Shown here: piece by piece, positions 3,785-7,474 of the stretch
Layout of the letters: each line of letters opens with the position of its first letter
How positions within the stretch are numbered: position 1 is the stretch's first letter
Source: Deltaproteobacteria bacterium RBG_13_61_14
Lineage (GTDB): Bacteria; RBG-13-61-14
Direction: 5' to 3'
Assembly (NCBI GenBank): GCA_001797815.1
Contig: MGQK01000125.1
Location: 131,600 to 147,518, forward strand
DNA length: 15,919 nucleotides
Notes under the pieces: generated by a model
Told to the model about the DNA's origin: nothing
What the model saw: only the letters and a program-made list of their open reading frames with translations
The model's database searches: none
Position numbers and translations under genes: made by a program

Positions 3785-4438
3785 TTAAAGTTTAAGCCGG
3801 CCGGATTCGAGGCGGATCAGGCGGTCGGCCCGGCCGGCGAGGGCGGGGTTGTGGGTGGCGAGGAGCAGGGTCGCGCCTTGCTGGTGAGCTTCGAGCAAAA
3901 CATTCAGGATGGTTAGTTCGGTTTCCGGGTCCAGGTCGCCGGTCGGCTCGTCGGCCAGGATCAGGCCCGGCCGGTTGACCAGGGCCCGGGCCACGGCCAC
4001 CCGCCGGGACTCGCCGGCGGAAAGCTGGTGCGGAAAAAAGTGAATTCGTTCTCCCAGGCCGACCTGTTCGAGGAGTGCGCCGGGGCGCTCCGGCTCAGGG
4101 CGTTCCGCGAAGCGCAGCGGCAGGCTGGCGTTGGCCAGCACGGTCAGGGTCGGGAGCAGGCTCGGGAACTGGAAGATGAAGCCGATGGTATTGCCGCGGA
4201 GCTTGGCGAGCGCAGTTTCATTGAGCGTGGCCAGGTCTTGGCCGAAAAGCTGGACAGCTCCCTGGCTGGGCCGGGTCAGCCCGGCGAGGAGCGAGAGCAG
4301 GGTGGTCTTGCCCGAGCCGGAGCGGCCGACTACGGCCGCGAATTCGCCCGGCGCCACGCGGAAGCTGACCCGGTCCAGGGCGGCGATGGGGCGCGCGGCC
4401 GTGCCGTAGCGCTTGCTCAGGTCTGTTGCCTGGATCAC
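3785..4438 (-). CDS. ABC transporter ATP-binding protein (LolD/MacB type)
   Basis: The 217-residue product is a complete nucleotide-binding domain. It has Walker A GRSGSGKT (38-45), Q90 in [13 protein letters not shown], the signature LSAGE (139-143), Walker [13 protein letters not shown] with D163 and E164, and switch H196 (ATHN). The Walker B wording and length match the LolD/MacB/FtsE branch, which powers FtsX-type permeases by conformational work and not by ordinary import. The signature is LSAGE where LSGGQ is usual. The start is GTG, with GAGGTG five bases before it. The GTG overlaps the permease stop as GTGA, so the two are almost certainly translationally coupled and form one complex. 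The substrate is unknown. Confidence 0.93.
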
Positions 4439-5655
4439 AATTCACCTCGACGCATGGCCTCGGCCGGCTCGAGCCGGGAGGCGGAGAGGGCGGGGAGTAG
4501 TCCGGCCAGCCCTCCGGCGGAAACCGCGAGTGCCAGTCCCAGGCCCGCGCTCAGCCCCAGTGCCGGAAGATCGGGCCACAGCCAGGGGAATTGCAGCCTC
4601 ACCGCGATTAGGCGGCTGAAGCCGAGGAGGATGCCGCCGGCCAGGGAGAGACCCAGGATGCCGCCGGCGATCGCCAGGGCCAGCACCTCGCAAAAGACCA
4701 GGCGGAAGATGAATTCGCGGCGGCCACCGAGGGCGCGCAGGATTCCGATCTCGCGTTTTTGTTCGTTGACCGCGAGCGCGAAGGTAAGCCCGAGCAAGAG
4801 CACCGCGGCCGGCCAGGCCGAGCCGCCCACGCCGCGGAGCAGGGTGAGCAGGCCGGACAGGTTCTGCCGGGTGCGGGCGATGAGGTCATCGGGCTGGATC
4901 ACGCTGACCTCCGGGATTCGGCTTTCAATCTCGTAAGCCGCTTTCCAGGCCGGCGGACCGCCTTCGGCTTCGGGCTGAAGCCGCACCAGGATGGCAGAGA
5001 CTTCCTCCGGAGAAATCTTGAGTTCAGCCTCCGCTTTCTGCGCGGATTCGCGGGCCATGCGCAGCGCGCCTTCGCGGGGGATGAAAATGGTCAGGTCCAG
5101 GCCCGAGCCGGTGGCCGCCAGTTTGCCGGCCAGGGTGAAAGTGTGGCCGTAGAAGCGGAGGGTGTCGCCCGGCTCCGGGATCATGGCCGCGCCAGCCAAA
5201 ATCTCGTCCGGGCCCAGGGGCCGGTCCGGGTGATCCAGAAGCCAGGGCCGGACCGTGAAATCGGATTCCGGGTCGAATGCGACTAGGAACAGGTTGGAGG
5301 CCGAGCAGCAGGCGGCGTTGGTAAGCGATTTGAGGAAGAGCTGGGTGGCGGTGCGCTCGATGCCGGGGATGCTCTGGACCTTGGCTTCCACGCTCCGGGG
5401 CAGGGTGAAGGTTGCGGGCTGGCCGGTGAGGATGGCCTGCTCGGTCGCCTGGGAAAGGCCGCGTGGCACCACCACCAGGTCCGCGCCCAGCCGGGCCAGG
5501 CTTTGTTCCAGGGCTTTCAATCGTCCTTGCTCCAGCACCCGGCCGGCGAAAACCGCGGCGGCGGCGATGGCCACGGCCAAAAGCAAAATCACTGACTGGA
5601 CCGGCCGGTGGCGGAGATGGGCCGCGATCAGATCAAAGACCGGTGGCGCGGCCAT
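4435..5655 (-). CDS. FtsX/MacB-type ABC transporter permease
   Basis: The 406-residue product has one N-terminal membrane helix (about 20-38), a large extracytoplasmic domain (about 45-270) and three C-terminal helices (about 280-296, 322-348, 366-390). It also has the typical FtsX phrase REIGILRALGGRREFI (301-316) and a MacB-like end (SASRLEPAEAMRRGE). The frame stays open to 5844, but that stretch is low-complexity and covered by the DUF4418 gene in another frame. ATG 5655 gives the natural start and a 23-base overlap with that gene. An adjacent cysteine pair, C116-C117 (NAACCSASN), lies in the extracytoplasmic domain just before a FDPESDFTVRPWL stretch. With the downstream ATPase it should form a MacB-like mechanical transporter, whose cargo is not evident. 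Confidence 0.9.
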   Translation of the reverse strand: MAAPPVFDLIAAHLRHRPVQSVILLLAVAIAAAAVFAGRVLEQGRLKALEQSLARLGADLVVVPRGLSQATEQAILTGQPATFTLPRSVEAKVQSIPGIERTATQLFLKSLTNAACCSASNLFLVAFDPESDFTVRPWLLDHPDRPLGPDEILAGAAMIPEPGDTLRFYGHTFTLAGKLAATGSGLDLTIFIPREGALRMARESAQKAEAELKISPEEVSAILVRLQPEAEGGPPAWKAAYEIESRIPEVSVIQPDDLIARTRQNLSGLLTLLRGVGGSAWPAAVLLLGLTFALAVNEQKREIGILRALGGRREFIFRLVFCEVLALAIAGGILGLSLAGGILLGFSRLIAVRLQFPWLWPDLPALGLSAGLGLALAVSAGGLAGLLPALSASRLEPAEAMRRGEL

Positions 5656-6073
5656 GGCGCTTCCACAGGAGAAGGGTTCCGGCCCCGCCCACGGCCGAGA
5701 GCAGGATGCCGAAGCTGACCAGGGCCGGCAGAGTCCCGAGCCGGCAGGACATGGTGGGCATCTTGCAAACCGGGGCGATGGCGAGGGGGGTGAGGATGAC
5801 CAGGATGCCGAGGCCGGCCGCGGCCAGGGAGCTGATCCAAGCAATAAGAGGGCGTGTCCAAAGCAGAGCGGCCAGGCCCAGGATGAAGGTCAGGCCGGCC
5901 AGCCCCTGGGTGACGCGCAAAGTTTTGGAGCAGGCGTGGCCGGCCAGGAGACCGACTTCCGCGCCGGGCGGGAGCGGAAAGCCGCAGACCGGGAAGAGGC
6001 GGCTAGGGAGGTAATAGAGGATGATGCTCATCGCTAAGATGATGAAGCCGAAGATACGATTACGGGGAAGCAT
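5633..6073 (-). CDS. DUF4418-family membrane protein
   Basis: The 146-residue product has four membrane helices (about 7-24, 55-72, 77-98, 115-136). The phrase VCKMPTMSCRLGTLPAL at about 102-118 matches the hallmark of DUF4418 as I know it. Cysteines at 30, 48, 103 and 110, a His before C48 and the C-x-M-x-x-M-x-C arrangement near the third helix could bind metal or form disulfides, which is inference. The ATG is chosen over an in-frame TTG six bases earlier (6079). No strong ribosome-binding site is seen for either. The gene overlaps the FtsX-type permease by 23 bases and leads the three-gene transporter operon. The family has no established function. Confidence 0.75.
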   Translation of the reverse strand: MLPRNRIFGFIILAMSIILYYLPSRLFPVCGFPLPPGAEVGLLAGHACSKTLRVTQGLAGLTFILGLAALLWTRPLIAWISSLAAAGLGILVILTPLAIAPVCKMPTMSCRLGTLPALVSFGILLSAVGGAGTLLLWKRHGRATGL

Positions 6074-6111
6074 CTTCAATGGGCGGAGCGATGCCGCAAT
6101 TAGGCGGCCGC

Positions 6112-7110
6112 TCAGGTTACCTCAATCTCCCTTAAAAACTTGGCCGCGTCTTCGGGCGTGGTGGGGTTGATGTAGAAGCCCGAGCCCCACTCGAAGCCGG
6201 CCACCCGGACCAGCTTGGGCATGACCTCCAGGTGCCAGTGGTAATGGGGCAGCTCCTGGTGGAAGGGCGCGGTGTGGAGCAGGTAGTTGTAGGGCGGATC
6301 GTTGAGCGCCTTTTCCAGTTTTCTCAGCAGCAGGTGGAGGATCTTGCCGAAGTTTTCCACCTCGTGCTTTTGCAAGTCCTCGAAGCAGGCCAGGTGGTTC
6401 TTGGGGAGGACATACATCTCGAACGGCCCTTTCGGAGCGTAAGGGGAGACCACCACGAAGTCCGAGTTCTCGGCCACCATCCGCCGGCCTTCGCTCAATT
6501 CCTGGCGGATGATGTCGCAGAACACGCACCGCTCCTTGAAGGAGTAATACTCCTTGCTGCCCATGATCTCTTCGGCCACTCGCTTGGGCACAATCGGCAG
6601 GGCGATCAGTTGCGAGTGGGTGTGCTCCAGGCTGGCCCCGGCGTCGGCCCCCTTGTTCTTGAAGATCAGCACGTAGCGCAGGCGCCGGTCCTTTTTCAAG
6701 TCCATCATCCGGTCGCGGTAGGCCCAGATCACGTCTTCCACCGACTTGGAGGAGAGCGGGGTCAAGTTGCGGCAGTGCTCCGGGGTCTCGATCACCACCT
6801 CGTGCGCGCCGACCCCGTTCATCTTGTCAAACATGCCCTCGCCCACCCGGTCAATGTTGCCCTCGATCTGGAGCGCGGGGAACTTGTTGGGCACCACCCG
6901 CAAGGTCCAGCCCGGGGTGTTGGGCACGGTGGCATGACGGTAGGCCAGGATCTCGGGAGGGGTCTGGCCTTCCCGGCCCGCGCAGAACGGGCAGTTCTTG
7001 TTATTGGCCGGCGCCTCATCCTTGATCTCAAAGTCCGTCGGCCGCTTGGACCGTTCGCTGGCGATGATCACCCACCGGCCGATCACAGGGTCTTTACGCA
7101 ACTCCGGCAT
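6112..7110 (-). CDS. galT: Galactose-1-phosphate uridylyltransferase
   Basis: The 332-residue HIT-superfamily protein swaps UMP between UDP-glucose and galactose-1-phosphate in the Leloir pathway, in the cytoplasm. The N-terminal DPVIGRWVIIASER phrase is diagnostic, as are the zinc-type pair C40-P-F-C43, NKFPAL, GAHEVVIETPEH, and the active-site H163-T-H165-S-Q167. H165 would be the uridylylated nucleophile. A second C195-V-F-C198 pair and HYHWHLEV (289-296) complete the fold. It is the shorter thermophile/archaeal-like form with HTHSQ in place of the enterobacterial HPHGQ. The ATG has GGAGGGAG six bases upstream, a strong site that the leader can mask. No galK or galE is adjacent. Related enzymes act on ADP-sugars, so substrate choice is not certain. 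Confidence 0.92.
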   Translation of the reverse strand: MPELRKDPVIGRWVIIASERSKRPTDFEIKDEAPANNKNCPFCAGREGQTPPEILAYRHATVPNTPGWTLRVVPNKFPALQIEGNIDRVGEGMFDKMNGVGAHEVVIETPEHCRNLTPLSSKSVEDVIWAYRDRMMDLKKDRRLRYVLIFKNKGADAGASLEHTHSQLIALPIVPKRVAEEIMGSKEYYSFKERCVFCDIIRQELSEGRRMVAENSDFVVVSPYAPKGPFEMYVLPKNHLACFEDLQKHEVENFGKILHLLLRKLEKALNDPPYNYLLHTAPFHQELPHYHWHLEVMPKLVRVAGFEWGSGFYINPTTPEDAAKFLREIEVT

Positions 7111-7300
7111 TCACAGCTCCCTCCGCTCCCGCTTAATAAATCATCCCCCCGCTTCCCGAAAAAGCAAACTGGATGCTGAAACCCGGGAGCGGATGGGATG
7201 AAGAAAAATCCAGGCTGACCGGCCACCTGCCGCTTCTCATCTTCATTTCCCCAAAAGCGAAAAGCGTCAAGCAGATGACTTCGGTGTCAGCCCGCTACTT
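7111..7300 (-). promoter_or_regulatory. Structured galT leader with two exclusive hairpins
   Basis: The stretch between ackA and galT (7111-7474) holds no gene. The predicted galT transcript has about 190 untranslated bases. Segment A (complement of 7184-7200) can pair with C (7117-7131), which includes the Shine-Dalgarno GGAGGGAG. That gives 14 pairs, ten of them contiguous, and one bulge. A can also pair with B (7142-7158), giving about 16 pairs with two single-base bulges, including a perfect CATCCC/GGGATG. The pairings exclude each other, so an A-B stem frees the ribosome site and an A-C stem hides it. No known riboswitch class was recognised. Between 7337 and 7425 I see nothing convincing. 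Confidence 0.45.
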
Positions 7301-7306
7301 AACTTG

Positions 7307-7336
7307 ATTATAACCCCTTGGCCGCCTTGCGGTCAA
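7307..7336 (-). promoter_or_regulatory. Strong sigma-70-like promoter for galT
   Basis: Minus strand TTGACC (7336-7331) and a perfect TATAAT (7312-7307) are 18 bases apart. Transcription would start near 7300 and reach galT at 7110. This is the best promoter match on the minus strand here and separates galT from the acetate kinase operon. Confidence 0.7.
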
Positions 7337-7425
7337 GCGCTTCCCTTATTCCCGGATAAACGGAACCAAAAGAGCACCTTCCCGAACGGTAGAGTCAAGC
7401 CCTTCACCGTGAAATAAAACTATCT

Positions 7426-7468
7426 ATCGTGCCACGGGTTATCGTGCCACGGGTTTGAAACCCGTGGC
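7426..7468. repeat. 15-bp tandem repeat running into a palindrome
   Basis: ATCGTGCCACGGGTT occurs twice head to tail (7426-7440 and 7441-7455). The second copy runs into a near-perfect palindrome at 7446-7468: GCCACGGGTTT, a single G, then AAACCCGTGGC, which is 11 pairs. It lies six bases beyond the acetate kinase stop, so it may act as a transcript-end hairpin, although no T-run follows on the minus strand. Its core resembles a palindrome inside the TMTC gene at 14384-14404, suggesting a dispersed element. Confidence 0.8.
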
Positions 7469-7474
7469 CGCGAT

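Follow-up and report, generated by a model that had tools for sequence, protein, structure and literature searches.

The 364-nt gap between a galT-like gene and the upstream ackA gene of Deltaproteobacteria bacterium RBG_13_61_14 raises the question whether the leader transcribed from it sets the translation of the galT-like gene by a choice between two mutually exclusive helices. The locus lies in a stretch of 15,919 nt of contig MGQK01000125.1 (referred to as the window; coordinates without further label are window positions), which is part of a 4.7-Mb assembly of 132 contigs.

Gene, promoter and layout of the leader

The galT-like gene (6112-7110, minus strand) was assigned to the GalT family by Pfam and NCBIfam, its product passes the TIGR00209 cut-off and the protein start MPELRKDP agrees with that of the orthologues. 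The closest characterized relative was not GalT; ADP-glucose phosphorylase was closer. The best solved relative is Arabidopsis At5g18200 (presumably entry 1z84) with 287 bits, versus 108 bits for Escherichia coli GalT, and the active-site motif HTHSQ is closer to HSHSQ of the Arabidopsis enzyme than to HPHGQ of the E. coli enzyme. At5g18200 functions as an ADP-glucose phosphorylase (PMC6329318). The gene product is thus probably ADP-glucose phosphorylase-like, so that a galactose or UDP-sugar signal is unsupported and should not be assumed. The genome contains three galT-like paralogs, at 6112-7110, G000:C70:16291-17286 and G000:C59:2131-3132, which are 100, 52, and 44% identical to the query, respectively. 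The galT-like gene is followed at 3785-6079 by genes encoding a DUF4418 membrane protein, an FtsX/MacB-like permease and an ABC ATPase, which may share its transcript, since they lie on the same strand after a gap of about 32 nt.

A preliminary description of the locus had claimed a strong promoter at 7307-7336 and a leader of about 190 nt, and both were recovered. The sigma-70-type promoter TTGACC-18-TATAAT is located at 7307-7336 on the minus strand and matches the consensus at 11 of 12 positions; from its position, the transcript is predicted to start near 7300. A scan of 674,610 strand-bases from this assembly yielded 20 sites of at least this quality, or about one per 34 kb, and about 0.01 such sites would be expected by chance on the right strand of the ackA-galT gap. 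The promoter at 7336-7307 is presumably used in the cell. From the 5′ end, the leader is composed of a long hairpin (7294-7211) and the three segments A, B, and C, all on the minus strand. The hairpin begins about 6 nt past the predicted transcript start, and almost all of the leader is thereby divided into structured units. It is the only element of the 5′ domain, long, imperfect and without a junction, with a predicted energy of -42.8 kcal/mol and a z-score of -5.2.

Predicted competing helices at the ribosome site

Segment A (TCATCCCATCCGCTCCCG, 7184-7201, minus strand) had been described as complementary to both segment C and its near-copy B, and this complementarity was confirmed. Segment B (CGGGAAGCGGGGGGATGA) is located at 7141-7158 and segment C (CGGGAGCGGAGGGAG), which includes the Shine-Dalgarno sequence GGAGGGAG (7117-7124), at 7117-7131, both on the minus strand. 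Over 15 nt, a single indel and a single substitution distinguish B (CGGGAAGCGGGGGGA) from C (CGGGAGCGGAGGGA). The duplex energies are almost equal with -31.4 kcal/mol for A:B versus -29.9 kcal/mol for A:C, and both pairings were also detected as inverted repeats. Folding of the leader, which had been suggested as a check, predicted the two alternative structures. Folded alone (7204-7139), the A:B hairpin at 7141-7201 has an energy of -34.3 kcal/mol and a z-score of -5.35 and leaves C free. In the fold of 7204-7111 (-41.8 kcal/mol, z -3.2) A:C is formed and B lies in a small inner hairpin. The A:C helix comprises 14 pairs within 7118-7198, and A pairs with 7131-7118, which covers almost all of GGAGGGAG. 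A:B and A:C are hence two mutually exclusive helices, one of them over the Shine-Dalgarno sequence, and according to the folding models both may form in the cell.

For a comparison with chance, a competing-helix score was defined for a segment that can form two duplexes, one with the last 26 nt ahead of the start codon and one elsewhere in the 190-nt leader; the less stable duplex gives the score. For the galT-like leader, this score is -29.9. None of 400 dinucleotide shuffles in which the last 26 nt were kept reached this value (mean -18.9, best -25.6). The genomic background was drawn from 337 kb of this assembly and contained 109 intergenic leaders. The galT-like leader ranks first of the 109 both by raw score and by z-score (z -5.6), with the next raw score at -26.4; these ranks are somewhat flattering, because A, B, and C were spotted first and the tests were picked afterwards. 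Furthermore, C outperformed all of 235 other ribosome-site regions in pairing with A (minimum of the others -26.5, mean -12.7). The overall folding of the leader is less exceptional, with a z-score of about -4 and the 10th place among the 109 intergenic leaders. The competing pairings are non-random and far beyond chance for this genome. In palindrome-rich genomes a strong leader fold is by itself not very informative, and competing pairings at the ribosome site tell more.

Of the translational switch claimed initially, the exclusive and nearly equal pairings beyond chance and the position of A:C over GGAGGGAG stood, whereas neither conservation nor membership in a known RNA family was found. 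Taken together, translational control by the galT-like leader is a moderately likely candidate function.

Conservation and alternative explanations

The phylum comparison covered three genomes including the source. Orthologs of the galT-like gene in the two other genomes share 65-67% identity with it, their upstream sequences differ and a similar leader is absent from both; ackA and the downstream genes were not found in the fetched flanks of these orthologs. The leader was also absent from about 110 homologous galT-like loci, mostly of Acidobacteriota, Nitrospirota, and Deltaproteobacteria, and from the paralogs in the three genomes, among which the best raw competing-helix score was -26.1 at a z-score of -1.5 and the best z-score -3.5. 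Single-sequence structure models retrieved no other copy in the source genome, the phylum or the galT loci, the structure model R2 had no match in 60 genomes, and a plasmid search with the leader yielded only a chance match of 11% to a Deinococcus coding sequence. An absence of conserved pairing in relatives had been named beforehand as evidence against a switch. In form this is what was observed, as the leader is absent from relatives, but a relaxed pairing as such was not seen. With the leader missing altogether from these relatives, the result points to a young or lineage-specific element and not to a relaxed pairing.

This pattern also bears on the strongest alternative, namely that the leader has no regulatory role. 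The hairpins would then be palindromic intergenic remains, the likeness of B and C a short duplication, as the preliminary description had allowed, or a chance resemblance between purine-rich ribosome-site sequences, and any effect on translation incidental. We regard this as a serious possibility, of somewhat lower probability than translational control. Palindromes are common in the intergenic DNA of this genome, and most of its dozen most strongly folded leaders are dispersed palindromic repeats, each present in several places; windows as stable as each of the two hairpins account for about 0.06% of those sampled. The small difference between B and C and the lack of any ortholog that kept the leader point in the same direction. 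Against it, no second copy of the leader exists in the whole genome, where the DNA sequence and two structure models each gave a single match, so that it does not belong to a dispersed repeat in its present form. The pairing of A with C, superior to all 235 other ribosome-site regions, and the failure of all 400 shuffles to produce both helices likewise argue against chance remains. Though single-copy, the leader could be a decayed remnant of a palindromic repeat.

Several dispersed palindromic families of this genome, of the GTAGGGGCGCAATT type and the CACCACGGAGACACAGAG type, are located directly before genes (L127:16906-17168, L133, L126, L128, L134, and others). Within the window, the palindrome CCACGGGTTTCAAACCCGTGG is found at 7425-7471 after ackA, together with a 15-nt tandem copy. 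It has about 16 related sites genome-wide, against none for a control search with the reversed pattern, and is a dispersed palindromic repeat that may have a role as terminator. The leader of a CoA-ligase-like gene (1262-1444) is a large palindrome (TTTAGGCCTTAGGC...) with a fold z-score of -6.1 and is kin to repeats elsewhere on the contig.

A putative upstream ORF of 37 codons (7133-7246, minus strand; 35 codons from a second ATG with a better ribosome site) overlaps segments A and B and opens a further explanation. Ribosomes translating 7246-7133 would open the pairing of A and B and release C, in the manner of the translational attenuators of ermC or mgtQ/mgtB. Translation of the galT-like gene would then require the upstream ORF to be read and might respond to stalling within it. 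Both A and B lie completely inside the ORF, which stops 22 nt before the gene, the ribosome site of its second ATG is moderate (-5.5 kcal/mol), and the same logic was demonstrated experimentally for mgtQ/mgtB (PMC8092293). ATG-started ORFs of comparable length and position are not rare by chance: they occurred in 16% of the shuffles and in 12 of 91 real leaders, and in 5.6% and four of 91, respectively, if a ribosome site was included. In addition, the codon usage of the ORF is not coding-like (log-likelihood -9.4) and its start sits inside the 5′ hairpin. The upstream ORF is therefore a rival reading rather than a finding, and such an attenuator appears unlikely.

A ligand riboswitch or RNA thermometer responding to a sugar, a nucleotide sugar or heat is highly improbable: although a helix masking the ribosome site next to a separate structured 5′ domain, and the arrangement of A, B, and C in general, resemble common expression platforms, the 5′ domain is one hairpin without a junction, the leader is present in no other genome searched, and the Rfam comparison that had been called for gave no family match at curated or relaxed thresholds, the best relaxed hits being chance snoRNA and viral models below their gathering scores. 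A heat switch is not favored either, as the Shine-Dalgarno sequence is predicted to be open at equilibrium to about 1% at 37°C and to 5% at 55°C, which is a small temperature response. Transcription attenuation was likewise not favored. Only a weak U tract, UUUAUUAAG, follows the A:B hairpin, and C, being located downstream of this hairpin, cannot act as an antiterminator.

Proposed order of folding and comparison with known systems

Of the explanations considered, we tentatively prefer translational control of the galT-like gene via helix competition for A, to which we assign a probability somewhat short of even. The leader would be a lineage-specific structured element in which two helices compete for A and thereby set translation. 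In modeled folds of the lengthening transcript, A:B was formed with 3′ ends from 7153 to 7123, and almost every transcript reaching 7117 or beyond gave A:C; the exception was a transcript ending near 7081, which favored A:B. During transcription, A would thus pair first with B (7141-7201), and the ribosome site would emerge unpaired. Unless a ribosome binds soon, A would swap to C and GGAGGGAG would be buried in the 14-pair helix. The outcome would be set by the speed of ribosome loading or by some stabilizer of A:B, and the proposal includes no ligand. At equilibrium, A:C is far more stable in the model than the states with open C, with the usual error of folding predictions of several kcal/mol. 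As A:C is the better final state at nearly all lengths, the site would need to be kept open, for instance by ribosomes, the order of folding or a partner. This order is a prediction of the folding model, and any effect on protein output is an inference.

A stricter version is conceivable, in which timing is set by the order of folding, without ligand or protein: nascent RNA is translatable in the A:B state, RNA that remains unloaded closes itself by A:C, and the device is restricted to this lineage. We consider this version improbable. If it were true, translation of a sugar-nucleotide enzyme would track ribosome loading. More generally, a functional leader would mean that a nucleotide-sugar metabolism gene of a poorly known phylum is controlled at the level of translation, mainly by the order of folding.

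Competition for a ribosome-site-masking segment is known from several systems. In erm-type translational attenuators, the segment masking the ribosome site is contested by pairing partners within the leader. The logic of competition for A is the same, whereas the galT-like locus contains no antibiotic-resistance gene or recognized stalling peptide and the order of the segments differs. Translational riboswitch platforms commonly possess an anti-ribosome-site segment with two alternative partners in an arrangement like that of A, B, and C. Segment A with its two partners corresponds to this segment, but the galT-like leader has no recognizable aptamer or Rfam match. In the mgtQ-mgtB leader of Salmonella, stem-loops 1:2 and 3:4 alternate with stem-loop 2:3 over the mgtB ribosome site, as tested by mutation (PMC8092293). 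There, three stems compete and the ORF-dependent effect is proven, whereas here one segment has two partners and the ORF, predicted from sequence, is not clearly above chance. Common to both leaders are mutually exclusive helices, with the ribosome site concealed in one of them, and a short ORF overlapping the pairing segments. If functional, the galT-like leader would belong to an already known kind of regulation, translational control by alternative pairing of the ribosome site.
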